From: an uncultured Clostridia bacterium
GTDB taxonomy: Bacteria; Bacillota; Clostridia; RUG12999
Reading direction: 5' to 3'
DNA: 40,382 bases
Assembly (NCBI GenBank): GCA_946555455.1
Contig: CAMNSU010000014.1
Coordinates: 1 to 40,382, forward strand
Shown here: one piece after another, positions 1 through 38,016 of the stretch
Position numbering within the stretch: the stretch's first letter is position 1
Layout: every line of letters starts with the position of its first letter
Made by a program: the position numbers and the translations under genes
The notes under the pieces: generated by a model
Databases searched by the model: none
Told to the model about the DNA's origin: nothing
The model's input: only the letters and a program-made list of their open reading frames with translations

Positions 1-18
1 AATGCAGTATCAGTCTTT

Positions 19-55
19 CCCGCGTTCGCTTTTTTGCGGCGCGGGTTCTCTTTTT
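19..55 (+). terminator. Intrinsic terminator of an upstream gene
   Basis: CCCGCG at 19-24 pairs with CGCGGG at 40-45 and is followed by TTCTCTTTTT. It probably ends a gene that lies left of the window. From 56 to 147 there is only AT-rich sequence with no gene. Confidence 0.6.
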
Positions 56-147
56 ATATGGAGCAGTGAAAGAAATGATACAGCGTAGATTTTTATAAAA
101 TTTGCAAAAAAATAAAATGGTTGAATTATAACTAAAACGATAGCTTG

Positions 148-190
148 TTCCAAAAAGATATCAATTGATTTATAATAGAATCAGTTGATA
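148..190 (+). promoter_or_regulatory. Promoter and paired operators of the XRE gene
   Basis: A TATAAT -10 at 171-176 lies 17 bases after a weak TTCCAA -35 (148-153). Two near-identical palindromic boxes flank the -10: ATCAATTGAT (160-169, perfect) and ATCAGTTGAT (180-189), with centres about 20 bp apart. Two helical turns between boxes is typical of cooperative XRE-type repressors, so autoregulation by the gene at 208 is likely (inference). Confidence 0.55.
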
Positions 191-207
191 AGAAAGGGGG
201 CGTTATC

Positions 208-534
208 GTGCAGTTGAATTATAAACTGATTGGCAAGCGTATAAGACAATGTAGAAAACAGCTTGGCTTAACACAGAAAGAGGTTGCGGAAAAAGCAGGA
301 ATATCGGAACAATATTGTTCTGAACTGGAATTAGGAAAAAAAGGCGGTACTCTTGCAGTTTATTATCAACTTGCGCAAGCATTAAATGTAAGTTTAGATA
401 GCTTGGTCATGGATAACGTCTCAAATGATAATTCAATAGCAACATCAGCACTAATAAACCGAATACAGAACTATACACCTAAAAAGTATGAAATGGTGTT
501 ATCTTATATGGATTTTTTAGATTTCATTAATTAG
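208..534 (+). CDS. XRE-family helix-turn-helix regulator
   Basis: This 108-residue protein is a single Cro/C1-type helix-turn-helix domain over roughly residues 8-66 (KRIRQCRKQLGLTQ, then VAEKAGISEQYCSELELGKK), followed by a short tail without a recognisable effector domain. Small XRE proteins of this kind bind operator DNA as dimers. The GTG start at 208 is chosen because AAGAAAGGGGG lies just before it and the conserved domain begins at once. The gene stands alone between two terminators and is visibly more AT-rich than the genes around 1-10 kb, which could mean acquisition by transfer. Palindromic boxes around its -10 suggest that it controls itself; its other targets are unknown. Confidence 0.85.
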   Translation: MQLNYKLIGKRIRQCRKQLGLTQKEVAEKAGISEQYCSELELGKKGGTLAVYYQLAQALNVSLDSLVMDNVSNDNSIATSALINRIQNYTPKKYEMVLSYMDFLDFIN

Positions 535-580
535 AGTGTATGATTATCTATTCATGAAGTAAGAATACAATTTAACAAAA

Positions 581-617
581 GCGGCTATTATGCAAATATA
601 TAATAGCCGTTTTTTGT
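581..617 (+). terminator. Terminator of the XRE gene
   Basis: CGGCTATTA (582-590) pairs with TAATAGCCG (601-609) over a 10-base loop, followed by TTTTTTGTT. From 618 to about 801 I see no gene; the region lies between convergent genes. Confidence 0.85.
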
Positions 618-801
618 TAAACTATTGATAAATAATTTTTTAGAGGGCACTAGAAGTCAGTTCAGTATGATAGCTGCGTTTTTGGGGTCTCATCAACAGC
701 AAGTAAGTATAGGCATAACTTTCATATTCCGTTCTTAACTGTTGTGTCTTTTTGCTATGATGCAGATATCGGCAGTGCAAACTGCACGATAATCCCCTTG
801 T

Positions 802-1392
802 TCAATCATTTGTTTCGCCTGTGATTCGTTGAATCCCTTTTTCAAGACTTGCAGCATCCAGCATTCCGTTGGCATAGGTAACAAGATTTCCGTTTCTATC
901 AATAAAAAAGGTAGCCGGTAAGCCTGAAATATAATAAGCGGAAACGGCCTGCTGCGTTTTGTCAAAAAATACCGGAAAAGTAAAGCCTTGCTCTGCGATA
1001 TAGTCTTTGGCAATCTGTTCAGTTTCCCTCTGACCGTCGGTGGCGTTGACCATCAGAAATTGCACGTCAGGATATTTTTGATATGCTTGGTTGAAATCAG
1101 GCATTTCCTCTTTGCAATAATAGCACCAAGTTGCCCAGAAATTGAGTACAACAGGTTTACCCAAATAATCCGACAGTTTCACGTCATTGCCGTCGGGCGT
1201 GGACACGGTGAAACCGGGAGCGGCATAATCAGACGACGCTCCGTCAGACGAGTTATCAGTTTTATCGGTTTGATTTTCAGCGAGTTTGTCGGGCGCATAG
1301 GTTTTACTCAAAGAACTATATAAAAAATAGGCGCCTGTAAAAAGCAGCACGGTACATACAATGCCGGCAATCCATAAAATATTTTTTTTCAT
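802..1392 (-). CDS. TlpA/ResA-like membrane-anchored thiol-disulfide oxidoreductase
   Basis: The protein (196 residues) has an uncleaved N-terminal membrane anchor (about residues 5-28), a polar linker (30-56) and a TlpA/ResA-type thioredoxin fold facing outside the cytoplasm. The redox motif is W-C-Y-Y-C at about residues 89-93, and the cis-proline region (SGLPATFFID) is intact. Such proteins reduce or shuffle disulfides of exported proteins, using electrons passed by CcdA. The start is set at the ATG that aligns with the starts of two other genes sharing the same leader; an ATG one codon earlier (1395) and an in-frame ATG at 1404 also exist. It lies downstream of ccdA in the same direction, with an unusual pseudoknot-like leader in the 80-base gap. 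Confidence 0.9.
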   Translation of the reverse strand: MKKNILWIAGIVCTVLLFTGAYFLYSSLSKTYAPDKLAENQTDKTDNSSDGASSDYAAPGFTVSTPDGNDVKLSDYLGKPVVLNFWATWCYYCKEEMPDFNQAYQKYPDVQFLMVNATDGQRETEQIAKDYIAEQGFTFPVFFDKTQQAVSAYYISGLPATFFIDRNGNLVTYANGMLDAASLEKGIQRITGETND

Positions 1393-1465
1393 CATAATAT
1401 CCATAGCCTTTCCGCCCACAAATTAGGAATCAAAACGTTCTTATCGTGGGCGGATAAGACGTTAA
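1390..1465 (-). promoter_or_regulatory. Pseudoknot-like leader element, copy 1 (before tlpA)
   Basis: On the minus strand AACGTCTTAT (1463-1454) pairs with ATAAG-A-ACGTT (1444-1434, one bulged A) around a 9-base loop CCGCCCACG (1453-1445). The loop is fully complementary over 8 bases to GTGGGCGG (1419-1412), immediately followed by the ribosome site GAAAGG. The sequence from TAACG to the start codon is strongly conserved with copies at 5044-5126 and 7055-7136. Here the element is intercistronic, between ccdA and tlpA. An RNA regulator that masks the ribosome site is inferred. Confidence 0.65.
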
Positions 1466-1472
1466 ATTCCTC

Positions 1473-2135
1473 CTACGAAAGAATGGCAAGGAACTTGCCC
1501 AAAAGTCCTGTCATCATCAAAATGCCAACCAAAACGAGCAGTGAACCGCTGACAATATTGATAACTTTATAGTTTCGCTTAATAAACGCAAACGTATTTT
1601 TGAGTTTGTCAATCAAAATGGCGCTTACCAAAAACGGTATGCCGAGCCCCAAAGAATATAACAATAACATCAGCACGCCGGTGAGCGCATGACCCTGCTG
1701 GGAAGCGAGCATGAGAGCAGAACCGAGAAAAACGCCTACACAGGGCGTCCAGCCGATGGAAAACACCATGCCGAAAAGCACAGCTGAAAAAAAGCCGAGA
1801 TTTTTTTTGTCCATAGACCGGTTGATGCCACCAAACAAGCGAACCTTAAAAACACCAAGAAAATGCAGACCGAAAAAAATCACAATCACTCCTGTGACAA
1901 TATTAACAGCGGTTTGATATTCCTTCAGCAATCCGCCGAGTGTTCCTGCCAGCGCGCCCATTGCGACAAACACGATTGTGAATCCTGCCTCAAATCCAAG
2001 TGCATTTTTAATGGTTTTGGCAGTGGTTCGCTCTGTATCGCCTGCAAAATAAGACACATAGATTGGCAGCATGGGCAGCAGGCATGGTGAAATAAAAGTG
2101 ATGATTCCTTCCAAAAAAGCAATAAAATATTGCAT
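1473..2135 (-). CDS. ccdA: CcdA/DsbD-like thiol-disulfide transporter
   Basis: This is a polytopic inner-membrane protein of 220 residues with about six hydrophobic segments, the usual size for CcdA. It carries the two family cysteines: C18 in ISPCLLPMLPIYVSYFAG and C132 in the SIGWTPCVGVFLGSALM segment. CcdA proteins take electrons from cytosolic thioredoxin and deliver them across the membrane to a TlpA/ResA-type partner. The partner is the next gene, tlpA, and a thioredoxin gene lies at 5865 in the same island. The ATG start follows AAGGAGG. The promoter has a TGATATAAT extended -10 and a Crp/Fnr-type box upstream (2211-2252), so co-regulation with thioredoxin and ferredoxin is likely. Confidence 0.92.
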   Translation of the reverse strand: MQYFIAFLEGIITFISPCLLPMLPIYVSYFAGDTERTTAKTIKNALGFEAGFTIVFVAMGALAGTLGGLLKEYQTAVNIVTGVIVIFFGLHFLGVFKVRLFGGINRSMDKKNLGFFSAVLFGMVFSIGWTPCVGVFLGSALMLASQQGHALTGVLMLLLYSLGLGIPFLVSAILIDKLKNTFAFIKRNYKVINIVSGSLLVLVGILMMTGLLGKFLAILS

Positions 2136-2210
2136 AGGTCAGTCCTCCTTATGCGGTTTGTCCGCGGTAATTGCGCTTTAAAAACGGATTGGCAGGGCAA
2201 TATAACGTCT

Positions 2211-2252
2211 ATTATATCAGTTTTTTTCATTGAAATCTGTCATTATGTCACA
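2211..2252 (-). promoter_or_regulatory. ccdA promoter with Crp/Fnr-type box
   Basis: The minus strand has an extended -10, TGATATAAT (TATAAT at 2216-2211). Exactly 21 bases upstream is TGTGACATAATGACA (2252-2238), a one-mismatch match to TGTGA-N5-TCACA. The box centre falls near -41 relative to the expected start, the class II activator position. The same arrangement precedes trx and the ferredoxin gene. Confidence 0.65.
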
Positions 2253-2266
2253 TTCGTGCGGCAGAA

Positions 2267-2292
2267 ATTTTGCCATGTAAAGATTTTGCCAT
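2267..2292. repeat. Tandem direct repeat ATTTTGCCAT
   Basis: ATTTTGCCAT occurs at 2267-2276 and again at 2283-2292 (16-base period), between the divergent ccdA and DUF134 promoters. It may be a binding site for a tandem-binding protein, or chance. Confidence 0.3.
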
Positions 2293-2296
2293 TTGG

Positions 2297-2343
2297 TTAT
2301 TGACATATGTCAATAACTATGCTATGATTGATATATGTCATAA
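2297..2343 (+). promoter_or_regulatory. DUF134 gene promoter with perfect 20-bp palindrome
   Basis: A near-consensus sigma-A promoter is present: TTGACA (2300-2305), 17 bases, TATGAT (2323-2328), with an extended TGC before the -10. The -35 is embedded in the perfect palindrome TTATTGACATATGTCAATAA (2297-2316). A second imperfect copy, TGATATATGTCATAA (2329-2343), covers the expected transcription start. This layout indicates repression. The likely binder is the DUF134 protein itself, or another metal or redox regulator. Confidence 0.75.
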
Positions 2344-2402
2344 AAAATTATCATATCATATTCGCCGCAACGTGTCAAGAGAAGGTAGGAGAGGACGATT
2401 AC

Positions 2403-2762
2403 ATGCCGAGACCGAGAAAATGCAGAAAAGTATGTTGCTTGCCCAAATTCAATGAATTTCAGCCTGCCGGCAGAGTGGGCGAATGCGTTGTTTTGACCGT
2501 AGATGAATACGAATCCATTCGGTTAATTGACAACGAAGGGTTTTCACAGGAAGAATGTGCAGGATATATGCAGGTTGCCCGCACAACGGTTCAACAAATC
2601 TATAATTCTGCCAGGAGTAAAATCGCCAAAGCGTTAGTAGAGGGTGTTGGTATCCGTATTGAGGGCGGAGAGTATACTCTTTGCGACGGCAAGGAAAAAG
2701 AGTGCGGGTGCGGCGGCTGCCGTAGCCATCGTGGCAAGAGATGTGCTGATTCCTGCAATTAG
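2403..2762 (+). CDS. DUF134 (UPF0251) predicted DNA-binding protein
   Basis: This 119-residue protein matches the DUF134 family: N-terminal [14 protein letters not shown], then a central helix-turn-helix resembling sigma region 4 ([33 protein letters not shown]), then a cysteine-rich tail ([13 protein letters not shown] ... RCADSC). The N-terminal CRKVCC and the C-terminal cysteine cluster suggest metal or Fe-S binding (inference). The ATG at 2403 is chosen for its ribosome site (GGTAGGAGAGG) and the conserved family start; upstream in-frame starts lie in the promoter. DUF134 genes are commonly next to NifX/NifB-like small proteins, as here. It may autoregulate through the palindrome at its promoter. 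Confidence 0.85.
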
Positions 2763-2846
2763 CGCCGTCCTGTCATCATAGAGGCGCCCGCAAGAGATTT
2801 TAGTGCGGCGGAAACGCAACAGCACGATATGGTAAAACAAGTCTAG

Positions 2847-2874
2847 TTTACTTGCCCATTAGGGCAGGTATAAG
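2847..2874 (+). promoter_or_regulatory. Candidate promoter of the NifX-like gene with operator in the spacer
   Basis: TTTACT (2847-2852), 16 bases, then TATAAG (2869-2874). The spacer is filled by the inverted repeat TGCCC-ATTA-GGGCA (2853-2866), which would place a regulator between -35 and -10. The gene could also simply be read through from the DUF134 promoter, since no terminator lies between them. Confidence 0.4.
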
Positions 2875-2885
2875 AGAATCGAATA
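2866..2885 (-). repeat. Dispersed TAGGCA-type repeat, partial copy A
   Basis: The minus-strand sequence TATTCGATTCTCTTATACCT matches 19 of 20 bases at 31212-31231. It lacks the outer inverted arm seen in the other copies. It overlaps the -10 of the candidate promoter at 2847-2874. Confidence 0.5.
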
Positions 2886-2912
2886 TTATCATATAAAAAG
2901 GAGACAGATAAC

Positions 2913-3326
2913 ATGAAAATTGCAGTAACGTATGAAAACGGACAGATATTTCAGCACTTCGGTCATACCGAACAGTTTAAACTCTACCATGTGGAAGATG
3001 GAAAAATTCTTTCCGCCGAAATCGTGGATACCAATGGCAGCGGACATGGTGCGCTTGCGGGTCTGCTTTCGGCGCTCAAAACAGATGTGTTGATTTGCGG
3101 CGGCATTGGCGGCGGCGCACAAATGGCTTTGGCGCAGAGTGGAATCCGGCTTTTTGGCGGCGTCAGCGGCGATGCTGATAAAGCAGTGGAAAGTTTTATT
3201 GCGGGAAATTTGGCATATGACCCTGAGGCAAAATGCGACCACCACGACCATCAACACGGCGAAGGACATACTTGCGGCGACCATGGCTGCGGAAGTCATA
3301 ACTGCGGAGAACATAGCTGTCATTAA
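2913..3326 (+). CDS. NifX/NifB-type iron-molybdenum cluster-binding domain protein with His/Cys tail
   Basis: Residues 1 to about 105 form a dinitrogenase iron-molybdenum cofactor domain (MKIAVTYENGQIFQHFGH ... CGGIGGGAQMALAQSGI). These small proteins bind Fe-S or Mo-Fe clusters, and many occur outside nitrogen fixation. The last 30 residues are an unusual metal-binding tail rich in His and Cys (HHDHQHGEGH, CGDHGCGSHNCGEHSCH). The ATG is preceded by AAAAAGGAG. No nitrogenase genes are present in the window, so a role in Fe-S or metal trafficking is more likely than nitrogenase assembly. The upstream DUF134 gene is a plausible regulator. Confidence 0.87.
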   Translation: MKIAVTYENGQIFQHFGHTEQFKLYHVEDGKILSAEIVDTNGSGHGALAGLLSALKTDVLICGGIGGGAQMALAQSGIRLFGGVSGDADKAVESFIAGNLAYDPEAKCDHHDHQHGEGHTCGDHGCGSHNCGEHSCH

Positions 3327-3330
3327 AGGA

Positions 3331-3371
3331 AAACCACACCCGCGCTTCCCCAAGCACAGGTGTGGTTTTTG
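3331..3371. terminator. Bidirectional terminator between convergent genes
   Basis: AAACCACACC (3331-3340) pairs with GGTGTGGTTT (3359-3368) and a T-run follows. On the opposite strand the hairpin ends in a short T/C-rich tract. It serves the NifX-like gene and probably the CoADR-rhodanese gene. Confidence 0.75.
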
Positions 3372-3375
3372 CTGA

Positions 3376-5046
3376 TTATTTGCATTCTGTGCAGATATAT
3401 TCAGGGACAGTGCATTCATGCATGACCGATTCATAAAGCCGCCATCCGCCCGCAAGATTATAGCAGTCATAACCGTTGCCCGCCAGAATACGGCAGGCGA
3501 TATAACTGCGAAGCCCGCTGTGGCAATGAACATATACAGGTTTATCTTTGGGAAGTTCGCTGAGGTGTTCTCTGAGAGAATCGAGTGGAATATTGATAAA
3601 TCCGTCTATTTTACCGCGGCGCACCTCCGTCACGGTACGGACGTCGAGCAGGGTCACGCTTCCGTCGCGCGGAAGCGTTTCCACGTCGTGCCAGAAAAAT
3701 TGCTTGATTTTTCCGGTAACGATATTTTCCGCCACAAACCCCAACATATTAACAGGGTCTTTTGCGCTGCCGAAGGGCGGTGCATAGCAAAGTTCAAGCG
3801 TGGCAAGGTCAGTGATTTTTGCGCCGAAGCGGATGGCACTTGCCAGCACATCTAAACGCTTGTCCACACCGTCAAAACCGACAATCTGTGCGCCGATGAT
3901 ATGCAGCGTTTTTTTATCCCACAAAACTTTTAAAGACATGTTTGTGCCACCGGGATAATAAGAGGCGTGAGACGCGGAATAGGTATAGGTTTTATCGTAG
4001 TCGATACCGGCTGCCGCTGCGCTTTTTTCGTTCAATCCGGTTGTCGCAACTGTCATATCAAAGAGTTTTAAAATGGCGGAACCTTGCGTTCCGGTATAGC
4101 CGGAAGAAAATCCTGCAATATTGTCTGCGGCAATACGTCCCTGTTTATTTGCAGGACCGGCAAGCGGAATAAAGGCAGGGGATTTGGTGATGAAATCTTT
4201 GACTTCCACAGCATCACCTACGGCATAGATGTGTGGGAGATTGGTGCGCATTTGCGGGTCAACAATGATGCAGCCACGGGCATTGGTTGCAATGCCGCAT
4301 TCCTGCGCCAGCGCTGTTTCGGGACGGACGCCCACAGATAGAATGATACAATCGGATTCGATTTCGCCGTTTTGCAACATGACACGATTGCCGCTGATAG
4401 CAGTGACACCGTTGTTCAGATAGAGCTCTATTCCTTTTTCTTTGATATATTGATGCACATCAGCCGCCATATCAAAATCAAGCGGCGCGATGAGATGGTC
4501 AGCGAGTTCGACAATCGCGACGTCAAGCCCTGCTTCTGTTAAGTTCTCAGCCATTTCAACGCCAATATATCCGCCGCCTACAACAACGGCTGATTTCGGT
4601 TTTGCTGTTTCAATATATTCCTGAATGTTCAGCGTGTCGGGAATGGTGCGAAGTGTGAACACGTTATTGCTGTCAATACCACTAATGTTTGGTTTGATAG
4701 GCTCGGCACCGGGAGACAAAATGAGATGGTCATACTGTTCCTGATAGGTGTCGCCTGACACTAGATTTTTCACTGTGACAGTTTGTGCGGTCGGGTCAAT
4801 TTTCACCGCTTCGTTCTGAACGCGCACATCAATATGAAATCTTGCCTTGAAGCTCTCGGGCGTTTGCAGCGTCAGGGCATTACGGTTGGTTATCGTACCG
4901 CCAATATAGTAGGGTAGACCGCAATTGGCAAAAGAGACATATTCACCGCGTTCTAAAATGATAATTTCTGCGTTTTCATCTAGTCGGCGGAGTCGGGCTG
5001 CCGCAGATGCACCACCGGCAACACCGCCTATTATAATAGTTTTCAT
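3376..5046 (-). CDS. CoA-disulfide reductase/NADH oxidase-type flavoprotein fused to rhodanese
   Basis: The protein (556 residues) starts with an FAD Rossmann motif (IIIGGVAGGASAAARLRR). It has the single active-site cysteine of the CoA-disulfide reductase/NADH oxidase family at about residue 43 (SFANCGLPYYIGG), a second nucleotide-binding motif (VVVGGGYIGVEMAENL) and a dimerisation domain. A C-terminal rhodanese domain (about residues 455-540) carries the persulfide-forming Cys in HCHSGLRSY. CoADR-RHD fusions reduce CoA-disulfide, CoA-persulfide or polysulfide with NAD(P)H. The start is moved to ATG 5046, where the family begins (MKTIIIGG); an in-frame ATG in the leader (5058) is conserved in all three leader copies. 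A few extra cysteines close the protein (HECTVPEYICTECK). Confidence 0.92.
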   Translation of the reverse strand: MKTIIIGGVAGGASAAARLRRLDENAEIIILERGEYVSFANCGLPYYIGGTITNRNALTLQTPESFKARFHIDVRVQNEAVKIDPTAQTVTVKNLVSGDTYQEQYDHLILSPGAEPIKPNISGIDSNNVFTLRTIPDTLNIQEYIETAKPKSAVVVGGGYIGVEMAENLTEAGLDVAIVELADHLIAPLDFDMAADVHQYIKEKGIELYLNNGVTAISGNRVMLQNGEIESDCIILSVGVRPETALAQECGIATNARGCIIVDPQMRTNLPHIYAVGDAVEVKDFITKSPAFIPLAGPANKQGRIAADNIAGFSSGYTGTQGSAILKLFDMTVATTGLNEKSAAAAGIDYDKTYTYSASHASYYPGGTNMSLKVLWDKKTLHIIGAQIVGFDGVDKRLDVLASAIRFGAKITDLATLELCYAPPFGSAKDPVNMLGFVAENIVTGKIKQFFWHDVETLPRDGSVTLLDVRTVTEVRRGKIDGFINIPLDSLREHLSELPKDKPVYVHCHSGLRSYIACRILAGNGYDCYNLAGGWRLYESVMHECTVPEYICTECK

Positions 5047-5126
5047 AAAAATATCCATCGCCTTTCTGCCCACAAATTAGGAATAAAAAAATCCGAACGT
5101 CCTTATTGTGGGCGGATAAGGCGTTA
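5044..5126 (-). promoter_or_regulatory. Pseudoknot-like leader element, copy 2 (before the CoADR-rhodanese gene)
   Basis: Minus-strand AACGCCTTAT (5125-5116) pairs with ATAAGG-A-CGTT (5106-5096) around the loop CCGCCCACA (5115-5107). The loop complements GTGGGC (5073-5068) just before GAAAGG. Compared with copy 1, one stem pair changes from U-A to C-G, a compensatory change. The element occupies most of the gap between this gene and the divergent Crp/Fnr gene, so the promoter of the leftward gene probably lies inside or next to the start of the regulator gene. Confidence 0.65.
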
Positions 5127-5155
5127 CCTCTTTTCTGAAAGGAGTCTCATGCAAA

Positions 5156-5827
5156 ATGGAATGGACAATGTTTGAACCGATATACCAAGAAATATTTCCG
5201 TTTTGGAAAGAAATCTCGGAAAAAGACAGGGAATATATCTGCCGGCATTCGACGGCTTTGCCCTATCCCAAAGGCGCCGGCGTTCATGACGGCAATGAGT
5301 GTTCCGGCGTGATTTTTGTCCGCTCCGGCTGCCTGAGGGTTTATATCATGTCCGAAGAAGGCAAAGATATTACGCTTTACCGCTTGCATAAAGGAGATAT
5401 GTGTATGCTTTCCGCTTCCTGTGTCTTGCAGAGCATTACCTTTGATGTGTTGATTGACGCAGAAGAGGACAGCGAATGCTATGTCATCAGCGGAGCCGCC
5501 TATGCCGCCGTGTCGGAACGCAATCCAAGTATTAGAATATTTACGCTGGAAACAGCAGTCAGCCGTTTTTCCGATGTCATGTGGGTCATGCAGCAAATTC
5601 TTTTTATGAGCATGGACAAACGGCTTGCTATTTTTTTGCTGGACGAAGCGGCGAGGACGGGAGCGGACACGATTGCACTCACGCACGAACAGATTGCCAG
5701 ATATATGGGTTCTGCCCGTGAAGTGGTGACAAGAATGCTGAAATATTTTGCAAATGAAGGGATCGTTCAAGTATCGCGCAAAGGCGTGAAGCTTTTGGAT
5801 AAAAAACGCCTGCGCAGCCTAGCCTGA
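5156..5827 (+). CDS. Crp/Fnr-family transcriptional regulator
   Basis: The protein (223 residues) has an N-terminal cyclic-nucleotide-binding-type beta barrel (about 15-125, with SGVIFVRSGCLRVYIMSEEGKD and KGDMCMLSASCVLQ), a long dimerisation helix, and a C-terminal winged helix with the recognition segment LTHEQIARYMGSAREVVTRM. It lacks the N-terminal cysteine cluster of oxygen-sensing Fnr, so the signal is not an Fnr-type 4Fe-4S cluster. Several internal cysteines could be redox sensors (inference). The ATG at 5156 follows GAAAGGAG by 11 bases. It sits amid redox genes, three of whose promoters carry TGTGAC-type boxes at the class II position, so it is their likely activator. Confidence 0.9.
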   Translation: MEWTMFEPIYQEIFPFWKEISEKDREYICRHSTALPYPKGAGVHDGNECSGVIFVRSGCLRVYIMSEEGKDITLYRLHKGDMCMLSASCVLQSITFDVLIDAEEDSECYVISGAAYAAVSERNPSIRIFTLETAVSRFSDVMWVMQQILFMSMDKRLAIFLLDEAARTGADTIALTHEQIARYMGSAREVVTRMLKYFANEGIVQVSRKGVKLLDKKRLRSLA

Positions 5828-5864
5828 CGTTTCCAATTTAAACACCGATTCGATTTTCTCCGGT

Positions 5865-6173
5865 CTATTCCTGCAGCATTGCAAGAATCTGCGGTTTTGG
5901 TTTTGCACCGACGGATTGATTGACAATTTTTCCGTCTTTCATCACCGCCAGCATGGGAATGCTGGAAATACCAAAGGCGCTTGCCAGTTCCGGTTCGCTG
6001 TCTACATTGATTTTGCCCACAAAATATTGTGGATTTTCCTCTGCAATTTCGTCTACCAAAGGCGACACCATTCTACAGGGACCGCACCAGTCGGCATAGA
6101 AATCAAGAAGCACCGGTTTATTACTGTTTTTTGCTAAATCAAAATTGTTTTTGGTAAGTTCTACTACTGTCAT
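5865..6173 (-). CDS. trxA: Thioredoxin
   Basis: A 102-residue classical cytosolic thioredoxin with the W29-C-G-P-C33 active site, D24 inside FYADWCGPC, and the cis-proline loop (GISSIPMLAVMKDGK). It reduces protein disulfides with electrons from thioredoxin reductase and would be the natural electron donor for CcdA at 1473. The ATG start is preceded by AAAGGAAG. It is transcribed toward and converges with the Crp/Fnr gene. Its own promoter (6257-6298) has a near-perfect Crp/Fnr-type palindrome, so it forms a separate unit from the ferredoxin operon upstream. Other trxA copies may exist elsewhere in the genome. Confidence 0.95.
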   Translation of the reverse strand: MTVVELTKNNFDLAKNSNKPVLLDFYADWCGPCRMVSPLVDEIAEENPQYFVGKINVDSEPELASAFGISSIPMLAVMKDGKIVNQSVGAKPKPQILAMLQE

Positions 6174-6256
6174 GGTTTATTTCTTCCTTTCTTTTTGTCA
6201 ATTACAGGGAAATCTCTTTGTTTACTACCTAAAAAGGAGGTATTGTTTCTGTCTTT

Positions 6257-6298
6257 AGTATAACCTATTAGTCTATCATTTTCTGTGACAAAGTCACA
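6257..6298 (-). promoter_or_regulatory. trxA promoter with Crp/Fnr-type palindrome
   Basis: TATACT (minus strand, 6262-6257) is preceded after exactly 21 bases by TGTGACTTTGTCACA (6298-6284), a perfect inverted repeat TGTGAC-N3-GTCACA. There is no good -35, as expected of an activator-dependent class II promoter. The box overlaps the stop codon of the upstream gene. Confidence 0.7.
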
Positions 6299-6863
6299 TT
6301 TTTTTCGCTTTGCAGATAAGCTGCGTCATCGTTCCCATGGGACAATATACACACCAGGAGCGCGGTTTGCACAAAATCATGGTAATCAATCCAAGGACGG
6401 TGGAGGTGAGCATGACACTGTAAAAACCGAAAGCAAACTGTGCCACTCCGTCTGAAAACAGCGTACCATGATAAGACCAATGCCACGGCACTTTTAATGT
6501 CCACAGCAAGGTTACGACTGTGGTCAAATTTTTTGCGCCGTCAAACACTAAATAGGTGTTCCAAAGCATTAGAAAAAACATTGCAAAAAAGAAAATTAGA
6601 AATCCATATCGGAAATAGCTTGATTTCATCCAACGCGGAATGTCTTTCTTTCGGGAAAGACCGAACTTGCCACCAAGGAGAGAAAACAACTGTCCTCTGC
6701 CGCAATATTTATTGCAGTATGCTTTGTTGCCTTTTACGATGGAGATAATCAGCGGTATAAAGAAGCAAAGCAGTCCCAGCCAGGCGAACAAAATATTGAA
6801 AAAGCCTAAAATAAGATAGGTAAGCGAGACAATCCAAAGATAATCATACCACTTTTTTTTCAT
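6294..6863 (-). CDS. Membrane Fe-S-type protein (NapH/YccM/CcoG-like)
   Basis: This 189-residue protein has about four membrane segments. Two cysteine pairs at membrane borders (CNKYCGRGQLFSLLGG and WCVYCPMGTMTQLICK) resemble the CxxxC(P) motifs of NapH, NosR C-terminal and YccM-type electron-transfer proteins. Those proteins usually carry their own 4Fe-4S ferredoxin domain; here that domain is absent and is supplied by the separate ferredoxin gene just upstream. The start (ATG 6863) overlaps the ferredoxin stop as ATGA and follows GGAGGTGC, so the two are translationally coupled. It probably passes electrons between a membrane donor and the ferredoxin (inference). Confidence 0.75.
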   Translation of the reverse strand: MKKKWYDYLWIVSLTYLILGFFNILFAWLGLLCFFIPLIISIVKGNKAYCNKYCGRGQLFSLLGGKFGLSRKKDIPRWMKSSYFRYGFLIFFFAMFFLMLWNTYLVFDGAKNLTTVVTLLWTLKVPWHWSYHGTLFSDGVAQFAFGFYSVMLTSTVLGLITMILCKPRSWCVYCPMGTMTQLICKAKKM

Positions 6864-7057
6864 TTTTCCAGCACCTCCAATGTGATAATGCTTGCAGGAC
6901 ATTCTTGGACGCATTTCCCGCAGCCAACACACAACGCGTGGTCAATCTCGGCGTTGATGCCGAAAGGAATTTTGATTGCTGCCCGCGGACAGACTTTTGC
7001 GCAGCAGCCACATGCAACGCATTCACTTTCATGGATAACAGCTTTTCGTTTTATCAT
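6860..7057 (-). CDS. 2[4Fe-4S] ferredoxin
   Basis: A 65-residue ferredoxin with two clusters: CVACGCCAKVCPRAA and CVGCGKCVQECPASI, both complete CxxCxxCxxxCP motifs. It is a small cytosolic electron carrier or cluster-binding subunit. The start at 7057 is chosen by alignment with the other two genes that share the same leader; a longer in-frame reading from ATG 7069 exists. It forms a two-gene operon with the membrane protein downstream. Transcription probably begins near 7243 from a promoter with a Crp/Fnr-type box, giving a leader of about 185 bases that contains a dispersed repeat and pseudoknot element copy 3. Confidence 0.92.
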   Translation of the reverse strand: MIKRKAVIHESECVACGCCAKVCPRAAIKIPFGINAEIDHALCVGCGKCVQECPASIITLEVLEK

Positions 7058-7136
7058 AACAATATCCATCACCTTTCTGCCCACAAATTAGAAATGAAAA
7101 ATCTAAGCGTCCTTACTGTGGGCGAATAAGACGTTA
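7055..7136 (-). promoter_or_regulatory. Pseudoknot-like leader element, copy 3 (before the ferredoxin gene)
   Basis: Minus-strand AACGTCTTAT (7135-7126) pairs with GTAAGG-A-CGCTT (7116-7105) around the loop TCGCCCACA (7125-7117). The loop complements GTGGGC (7084-7079) next to GAAAGG. Two stem pairs are G-U here where copies 1 and 2 have Watson-Crick pairs, which suits RNA better than a DNA operator. The downstream ATGGATATT segment is conserved too. Confidence 0.65.
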
Positions 7137-7182
7137 CATGAATATTTATGCCCATCTGCATTTTCATAGAAGGCGAAAAAAG

Positions 7183-7210
7183 TAGGCATATTCAACTTTT
7201 GTTTGCCTTA
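7183..7210 (+). repeat. Dispersed TAGGCA-type repeat, copy E
   Basis: TAGGCATATTCAACTTTTG followed by TTTGCCTTA. The left half matches the copy at 31206 and the right half matches the copies at 11169 and 21981 in inverted orientation. It lies in the ferredoxin leader. An inverted repeat TAACGT/ACGTTA follows at 7209-7228. Confidence 0.55.
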
Positions 7211-37840: not shown

Positions 37841-38016
37841 TGCCGGTGGGAGATTTCCTGTCAGGGCGGCTTTTCCCATCTGCCTGAGGGCGGACAGATG
37901 GGAAAGGTCATCCCAAACGGCAAAAAATGGTTTTTGTCGGGTATGGGAAACCCCATTTATGCAGATACTATAGAATAAGTATCTGTAATATTACAGATGT
38001 CCGGCACGAACCGGAC
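37841..38016 (+). ncRNA. Structured leader before hpf (raiA-motif-like candidate)
   Basis: TGCCG-gt-GGGA (37841-37851) closes with TCCC-aaa-CGGCA (37911-37922). Inside is TTTTCCCATCTG (37871-37882) with CAGATGGGAAAG (37895-37906). ATGGG-AAAC-CCCAT (37943-37956), CAGATACT/AGTATCTG (37962-37985) competing with the palindrome ATCTGTAATATTACAGAT (37981-37998), and GTCCGG/CCGGAC (37999-38016) follow. A raiA RNA motif is known upstream of raiA/hpf genes in Clostridia; identity with it is inferred from position and structure density, not proven. Confidence 0.45.

Follow-up and report, generated by a model that had tools for sequence, protein, structure and literature searches.

The DUF134 gene of this locus is preceded by a perfect palindrome that lies on its promoter, which raises the question of whether the palindrome is an operator and, if so, of which regulator. 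An earlier note made from the letters alone had described the palindrome as 20 bp long; its core, TTATTGACATATGTCAATAA, was confirmed at positions 2297-2316 of the window (the whole 40,382-bp stretch of DNA that was analyzed) and has one extra pair on each side, to give GTTATTGACATATGTCAATAAC at 2296-2317, perfect over 22 bp (operator copy 1). This is the sole perfect palindrome of at least 20 bp in the window. Based on first-order Markov sequences, 0.07 such palindromes are expected per window, and for the intergenic region of 267 nt the probability of such a palindrome is 0.001; a chance origin of the 22-bp palindrome was ruled out by these expectations. Separately, a second perfect palindrome, of 18 bp (ATCTGTAATATTACAGAT), was detected at 37981-37998.

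Two promoters were predicted around the palindrome. As had been claimed, copy 1 contains the -35 element of a near-consensus promoter, with the DUF134 promoter (2300-2328, plus strand) composed of TTGACA at 2300-2305, a 17-bp spacer, and TATGAT at 2323-2328 with an extended TG, for a match to 11 of 12 consensus positions. An equally good promoter on the minus strand (2378-2350), which the earlier note had overlooked, faces ccdA-tlpA and is likewise built of TTGACA (2378-2373), a 17-bp spacer, and TATGAT (2355-2350) with an extended TG (11/12). These two divergent promoters are the joint-best promoter-like sites within positions 1-7200, and both are identical in the sister species L018. Within copy 1, the TTGACA hexamer occurs twice in inverted orientation, with 2 bp in between. 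The degenerate second copy that had been placed over the start site was also recovered: operator copy 2 (2325-2344), with the core TTGATATATGTCAT at 2328-2341 carrying 2 mismatches, is positioned 28 bp from copy 1 and spans the predicted +1 of DUF134 (about 2335), and the predicted ccdA start (about 2343) adjoins it. In L018, copy 2 is nearer to the consensus (TTGACATATGTCAT). The arrangement looked for in an autoregulatory repressor, a conserved palindrome over the promoter elements of its own gene, was found here.

The genes on both sides of this region are consistent with a redox cluster. The DUF134-NifX-like pair reported previously was borne out by HMM scores: (i) the DUF134 (UPF0251/COG1342) protein of 119 aa (2403-2762, plus strand), which scored 80.3 bits against PF02001 over residues 3-92 (cut-off 27) and is proposed, from sequence, to be the operator binder; and (ii) the NifX/NifB-like (Nitro_FeMo-Co) protein (2913-3326, plus strand; PF02579, 65.9 bits), whose gene is proposed to be the co-regulated partner of DUF134. 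The latter is NifX-like at the level of PF02579 only, as it scored 19 bits against NifX proper (TIGR02663, equivalog cut-off 112), and it resembles the C-terminal part of MrpORP with a score below the cut-off of that model. On the minus strand, a CcdA/DsbD-like membrane protein (1473-2135; PF02683) is encoded divergently and has the operator region in common with DUF134, with a TlpA-like thioredoxin-fold protein (802-1419; PF00578/PF08534) downstream; in locus L150 a CcdA gene is likewise divergent at an exact site. A CoA-disulfide-reductase/rhodanese-type oxidoreductase (3376-5073, minus strand; PF07992, PF02852, and PF00581) is without an operator of its own in the window; a homologue in L359 has a remote site, and others are divergent from DUF134. 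The cluster also includes thioredoxin and ferredoxin-type proteins (both named from sequence) and a Crp/Fnr-family regulator (5156-5827, plus strand; PF13545 and PF00027), which is a rival binder and, in other genomes, a candidate target.

Conservation of the operator was examined in 80 related DUF134 loci, where a site was defined as TTGRCATATGYCAA with at most 2 mismatches and no more than 300 bp upstream of DUF134. The earlier note had proposed comparing the regions upstream of other DUF134 genes and took an absence of the palindrome there as evidence against its idea; a site was present in 73 of the 80 loci, compared with 22 of 1,647 control windows from the same loci (1.3%). As far as sequence comparison goes, this demonstrates that the operator is conserved. 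NifX was found in 62 of the 73 site-bearing loci, and most of these loci have two copies of the operator at a spacing of 22, 28, 33-34, or 36-41 bp. The conserved core is GRCATATGYC, with the inner CATATG the most conserved part.

The possibility that the palindrome is merely a strong promoter, with the -35 element falling within it by accident, draws on the finding that the left arm of the operator doubles as the -35 in 70 of the 85 ART-like representatives having a site. As the -35 lies within copy 1, RNA polymerase could be the reason that the outer TTG of this copy is kept, and the TTG is in part under this constraint. However, at least two sites are present in 58 of the 85 representatives, and the same symmetric consensus (wwAWTGRCATATGYCAwWAAc) was obtained from the 58 gene-proximal copies of these regions, which lie outside the -35. 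In addition, promoters need no perfect symmetry, and in the SRG recognition-helix class the -35 and -10 boxes are separate from the operator, TGTGCATATGCACA, which lies downstream of them. We consider the promoter-only explanation barely credible. Since the second copies are promoter independent, their consensus indicates that both the symmetric core and the A/T positions flanking it belong to the operator, and that the 22-bp palindrome of the window is close to an ideal site.

The same or a related core was found at DUF134 genes of Enterobacteria, spirochaetes, Negativicutes, and Bacteroidota. The core is present in two copies at the DUF134 genes of Selenomonas and of E. coli plasmids (28-29 bp apart in the latter), and was also detected in Peptoclostridium and on Klebsiella plasmids; Treponema has TTGACAAATGTCAG plus a second copy, while Parabacteroides and Phocaeicola have the related cores TGAGCATTTGCTCA and TGAACATTTGTTCA, respectively. 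Some DUF134 subfamilies use TGTGCATATGCACA or TGARCATTTGYTCA as the operator. The suggestion that the palindrome provides a testable operator for the DUF134 family thus holds for most Clostridia DUF134 genes and for DUF134 genes of several phyla, but mostly not for the subfamily with an SRQTFQ helix (e.g., L235, L121, and L202), as 32 of 35 SRQ genes have no site directly upstream. Similarly, no site was found within 350 bp upstream of 28 of 118 ART genes, in some cases since DUF134 is not the first gene of its operon. Roughly 40% of the Clostridia genomes sampled contain DUF134, which also occurs in archaeal control genomes; none was detected in phages at an E-value of 1e-5. DUF134 relatives were observed on 186 plasmid records, mostly of Klebsiella, Citrobacter, and Escherichia. 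Three Enterobacteriaceae plasmid loci (L158, L165, and L380) have DUF134-NifX pairs with the operator in two copies, and genes for Dps, ArsR/SmtB, and an FAD-dependent oxidoreductase adjoin the pair in two of the three.

De novo counting of palindromes was performed on the upstream regions of 219 distinct DUF134 genes split by recognition-helix class. The commonest exact 12-bp palindrome was TGACATATGTCA for genes with an ARTT helix (25 of 118) and GTGCATATGCAC for those with an SRGT helix (7 of 10); TTGACATATGTCAA is the ART-side counterpart of the SRG-class operator TGTGCATATGCACA. When the operators were scored as TTGRCAT versus TGTGCAT, the ratio was 96:2 for ART/GRT-like helices and 0:10 for SRG helices (p = 1.7e-12), with shuffled upstream regions scoring in 1% of cases. 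After thinning to <65% identity, which partly controls for sequence independence, the ratios were 18:0 and 0:4 (p = 1.4e-4); at <55% identity, six proteins remained (p = 0.07). Comparison of DUF134 paralogues within genomes was consistent with this pattern, with too few cases having two kinds of operator. These counts demonstrate covariation between helix and operator at the sequence level. A broader proposal can be framed on this basis, to which we give slightly less than an even chance: that DUF134 is a widespread family of transcription factors with a sigma-region-4-like fold, in which the residues at the start of the recognition helix set the half-site (ART for TTGRCAT, SRG for TGTGCAT, and probably SRP for TGARCAT). 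The operator of the family would be built around the -35 hexamer, and a cofactor bound by the cysteines would serve in the control of an Fe-S/thiol-redox regulon that extends across phyla.

The association of the operator with DUF134 was further examined in 391 Clostridia genomes using the extended motif TGRCATATGYCAWWAA. The motif was found in 58 of 148 genomes with DUF134 and in 22 of 243 without it (p = 2.6e-12), while a reversed-pattern control did not differ between the two groups (8 of 148 and 14 of 243, respectively). Of 115 extended-motif sites, 53 had a listed DUF134 gene no more than 1.3 kb away. The genome comparison thus demonstrates an association of motif with gene, and it bears on the nearby Crp/Fnr-family regulator (5156-5827) as the protein for which the palindrome could be the site. 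The TTGAC-N4-GTCAA pattern agrees in length and in its outer letters with an FNR-type box, whose half-site length is well established; the Crp/Fnr gene is within the same cluster; and sites precede Crp genes in L129, L362, and L374. Yet when genomes were stratified by the neighboring Crp subfamily, the motif did not follow the Crp gene (with versus without the subfamily, 16/40 versus 42/108 in genomes with DUF134 and 2/25 versus 20/218 in genomes without it; p = 1.0 in both strata), whereas the effect of DUF134 on motif presence held in both Crp strata. Moreover, no such Crp gene was located within 4 kb in 30 of 40 operator loci having full 4-kb flanks, the strongest conservation is that of the inner CATATG, for which an FNR-type site has no need, and the operator tracks the DUF134 helix. 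A Crp/Fnr site is, on this evidence, highly improbable, and the other refuting case of the earlier note, binding by an unrelated regulator only, found no support in these comparisons. One near-perfect site was observed at a Crp/Fnr gene (L362, G253:C55) in a genome without a detected DUF134, in which the matching open frame has one internal TGA; either DUF134 was missed in this genome, or Crp can use the site.

The earlier description of DUF134 as a DNA-binding domain with a cysteine cluster was supported by modeling and alignment, in keeping with a family (PF02001, to which the HMM score assigns the window gene) that combines a helix-turn-helix (HTH) with a Cys-rich tail and is usually encoded beside a NifX/NifB-like gene. 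The AlphaFold2 model (pLDDT 82), generated from an alignment without three rows from plasmid records, has helices at residues 33-44, 49-56, and 60-80. Its fold matches, to sigma region 4 and to DNA-binding domains of the DeoR type, have Z scores of about 7, middling values that support the type of HTH only. The HTH fold is like that of sigma-70 region 4 (SigR region 4; SigE region 4 on -35 DNA) and the PhyR sigma-like domain, and all DUF134 proteins scanned resemble sigma region 4 at least weakly. Unlike a sigma-70 factor, the window protein has no region 2 match and its region 4 matches are sub-threshold; in addition, the operator is symmetric and the tail is Cys rich. Promoter constraint accounts for part of the likeness of TTGACA to a sigma -35 element, a likeness that the SRG subfamily does not show. 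By profile, the closest solved chain is DeoR (SorC family) of Bacillus subtilis (PDB 7bhy/8r7y; E = 3e-5), with the match covering the HTH only. DeoR binds a palindromic operator, as is proposed for DUF134; however, the 119-aa DUF134 protein has a short tail with cysteines in place of the large effector-binding domain, which places it outside the SorC/DeoR family. Cysteines were conserved in 87-93% of DUF134 proteins (Cys52 in 199, Cys94 in 191, Cys103 in 189, and Cys106 in 202 of 218). The SRG class is without Cys52 and mostly lacks Cys11 and Cys94, such that the sensing chemistry may differ between subfamilies. IscR, RirA, Fur, and DtxR are Fe-S or metal autorepressors of iron/Fe-S and redox targets, with cysteine ligands in some; DUF134 would be their functional analogue with an unrelated fold.

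Taken together, we find it very probable that the palindrome is an autoregulatory operator of DUF134 and that a limited group of Fe-S, iron, and thiol-redox genes is under the control of the family. Direct binding of the operator by DUF134 is strongly suggested by the sequence comparisons, and the symmetry of the operator suggests that the protein dimerizes. A DUF134 dimer with a sigma-region-4/DeoR-like HTH would bind palindromes of the TTATTGRCATATGYCAATAA type and occupy both copy 1, at the -35, and copy 2, at the start site. RNA polymerase would thereby be kept off the DUF134 promoter and the divergent ccdA-tlpA promoter, giving negative autoregulation and a common divergent control region. 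The signal may be sensed through the conserved cysteines, which is a guess; a change in their state (loading with Fe-S or a metal, or oxidation of the thiols) would most likely release or tighten binding. Alternatively, DUF134 could act by activation or as a dual regulator, for instance by moving polymerase between the divergent promoters according to cofactor state. A sigma-region-4-like fold could touch RNA polymerase, the two copies have variable spacing (22, 28, and 33-41 bp), and copy 2 is flanked by the two divergent promoters. Overlap with the -35 and +1 is, however, the classical position of a repressor, and from this position we regard repression by DUF134 as the likely outcome and activation or dual regulation as unlikely.

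Remote sites provide candidates for the genes that DUF134 may control as a repressor beyond its own locus. Reliance was placed only on paired sites and on sites of the extended motif, as many single remote sites and exact 14-mer sites in the class look like chance. In other genomes, remote sites precede genes for NifX, DUF5320, Mrp/NBP35, FeoA-FeoB, CoA-disulfide reductase, and C_GCAxxG_C_C proteins, the set that the family would control elsewhere, and also genes for CobW, Crp, peroxiredoxin, and CcdA; the FeoAB site and one Crp site are in genomes without a detected DUF134. This gene set fits iron-sulfur or thiol-redox control. In the genome of the window, no exact site was found elsewhere, suggesting that its regulon may be just this locus. 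Matches with at most 2 mismatches, apart from the two local copies, numbered 27 compared with 15 in a reversed control, and a large regulon in this genome was unsupported, as the seven such sites examined had no coherent neighbors. Genes for DUF5320 proteins (Gly rich, MPxxDGTGPxGxGPMTGRG) were often observed with the operator, whether DUF134 adjoins them or not (L138, L142, L143, L348, L354, and L365).

A search of the open-access literature in PubMed Central found no description of an operator, target, or regulon of DUF134. The present results provide DUF134 with a proposed operator, a code that links helix to operator, and candidate targets, and the defined operator and its natural specificity variants make it a testable regulator. 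The candidate targets (NifX-like, Mrp, FeoAB, CoA-disulfide reductase, DUF5320, and C_GCAxxG_C_C), which include several unassigned genes, would have a common regulatory context in the iron-sulfur and redox physiology of anaerobes.

Two further elements were observed in the cluster. A leader element of about 60 nt (TAACGYCTTATYCGCCCACaaTAAGGACG...TTTGTGGGCRGAAAGGygATGGATATT) occurs three times on the minus strand (1414-1470, 5068-5125, and 7079-7133), directly before the tlpA, CoA-disulfide-reductase-rhodanese, and ferredoxin genes and, within the genome, in this cluster only. It forms a strong hairpin (-15 to -27 kcal/mol) beside the ribosome site, with a possible alternative helix, and had no match to an Rfam family; in the sister species the stems are kept and the loop is different. 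The element is a candidate translational regulator. A sub-threshold Rfam match to Vibrio RNA AS7 at 4859-5027 (plus strand) falls within the CoA-disulfide-reductase coding region and probably reflects conserved coding sequence.
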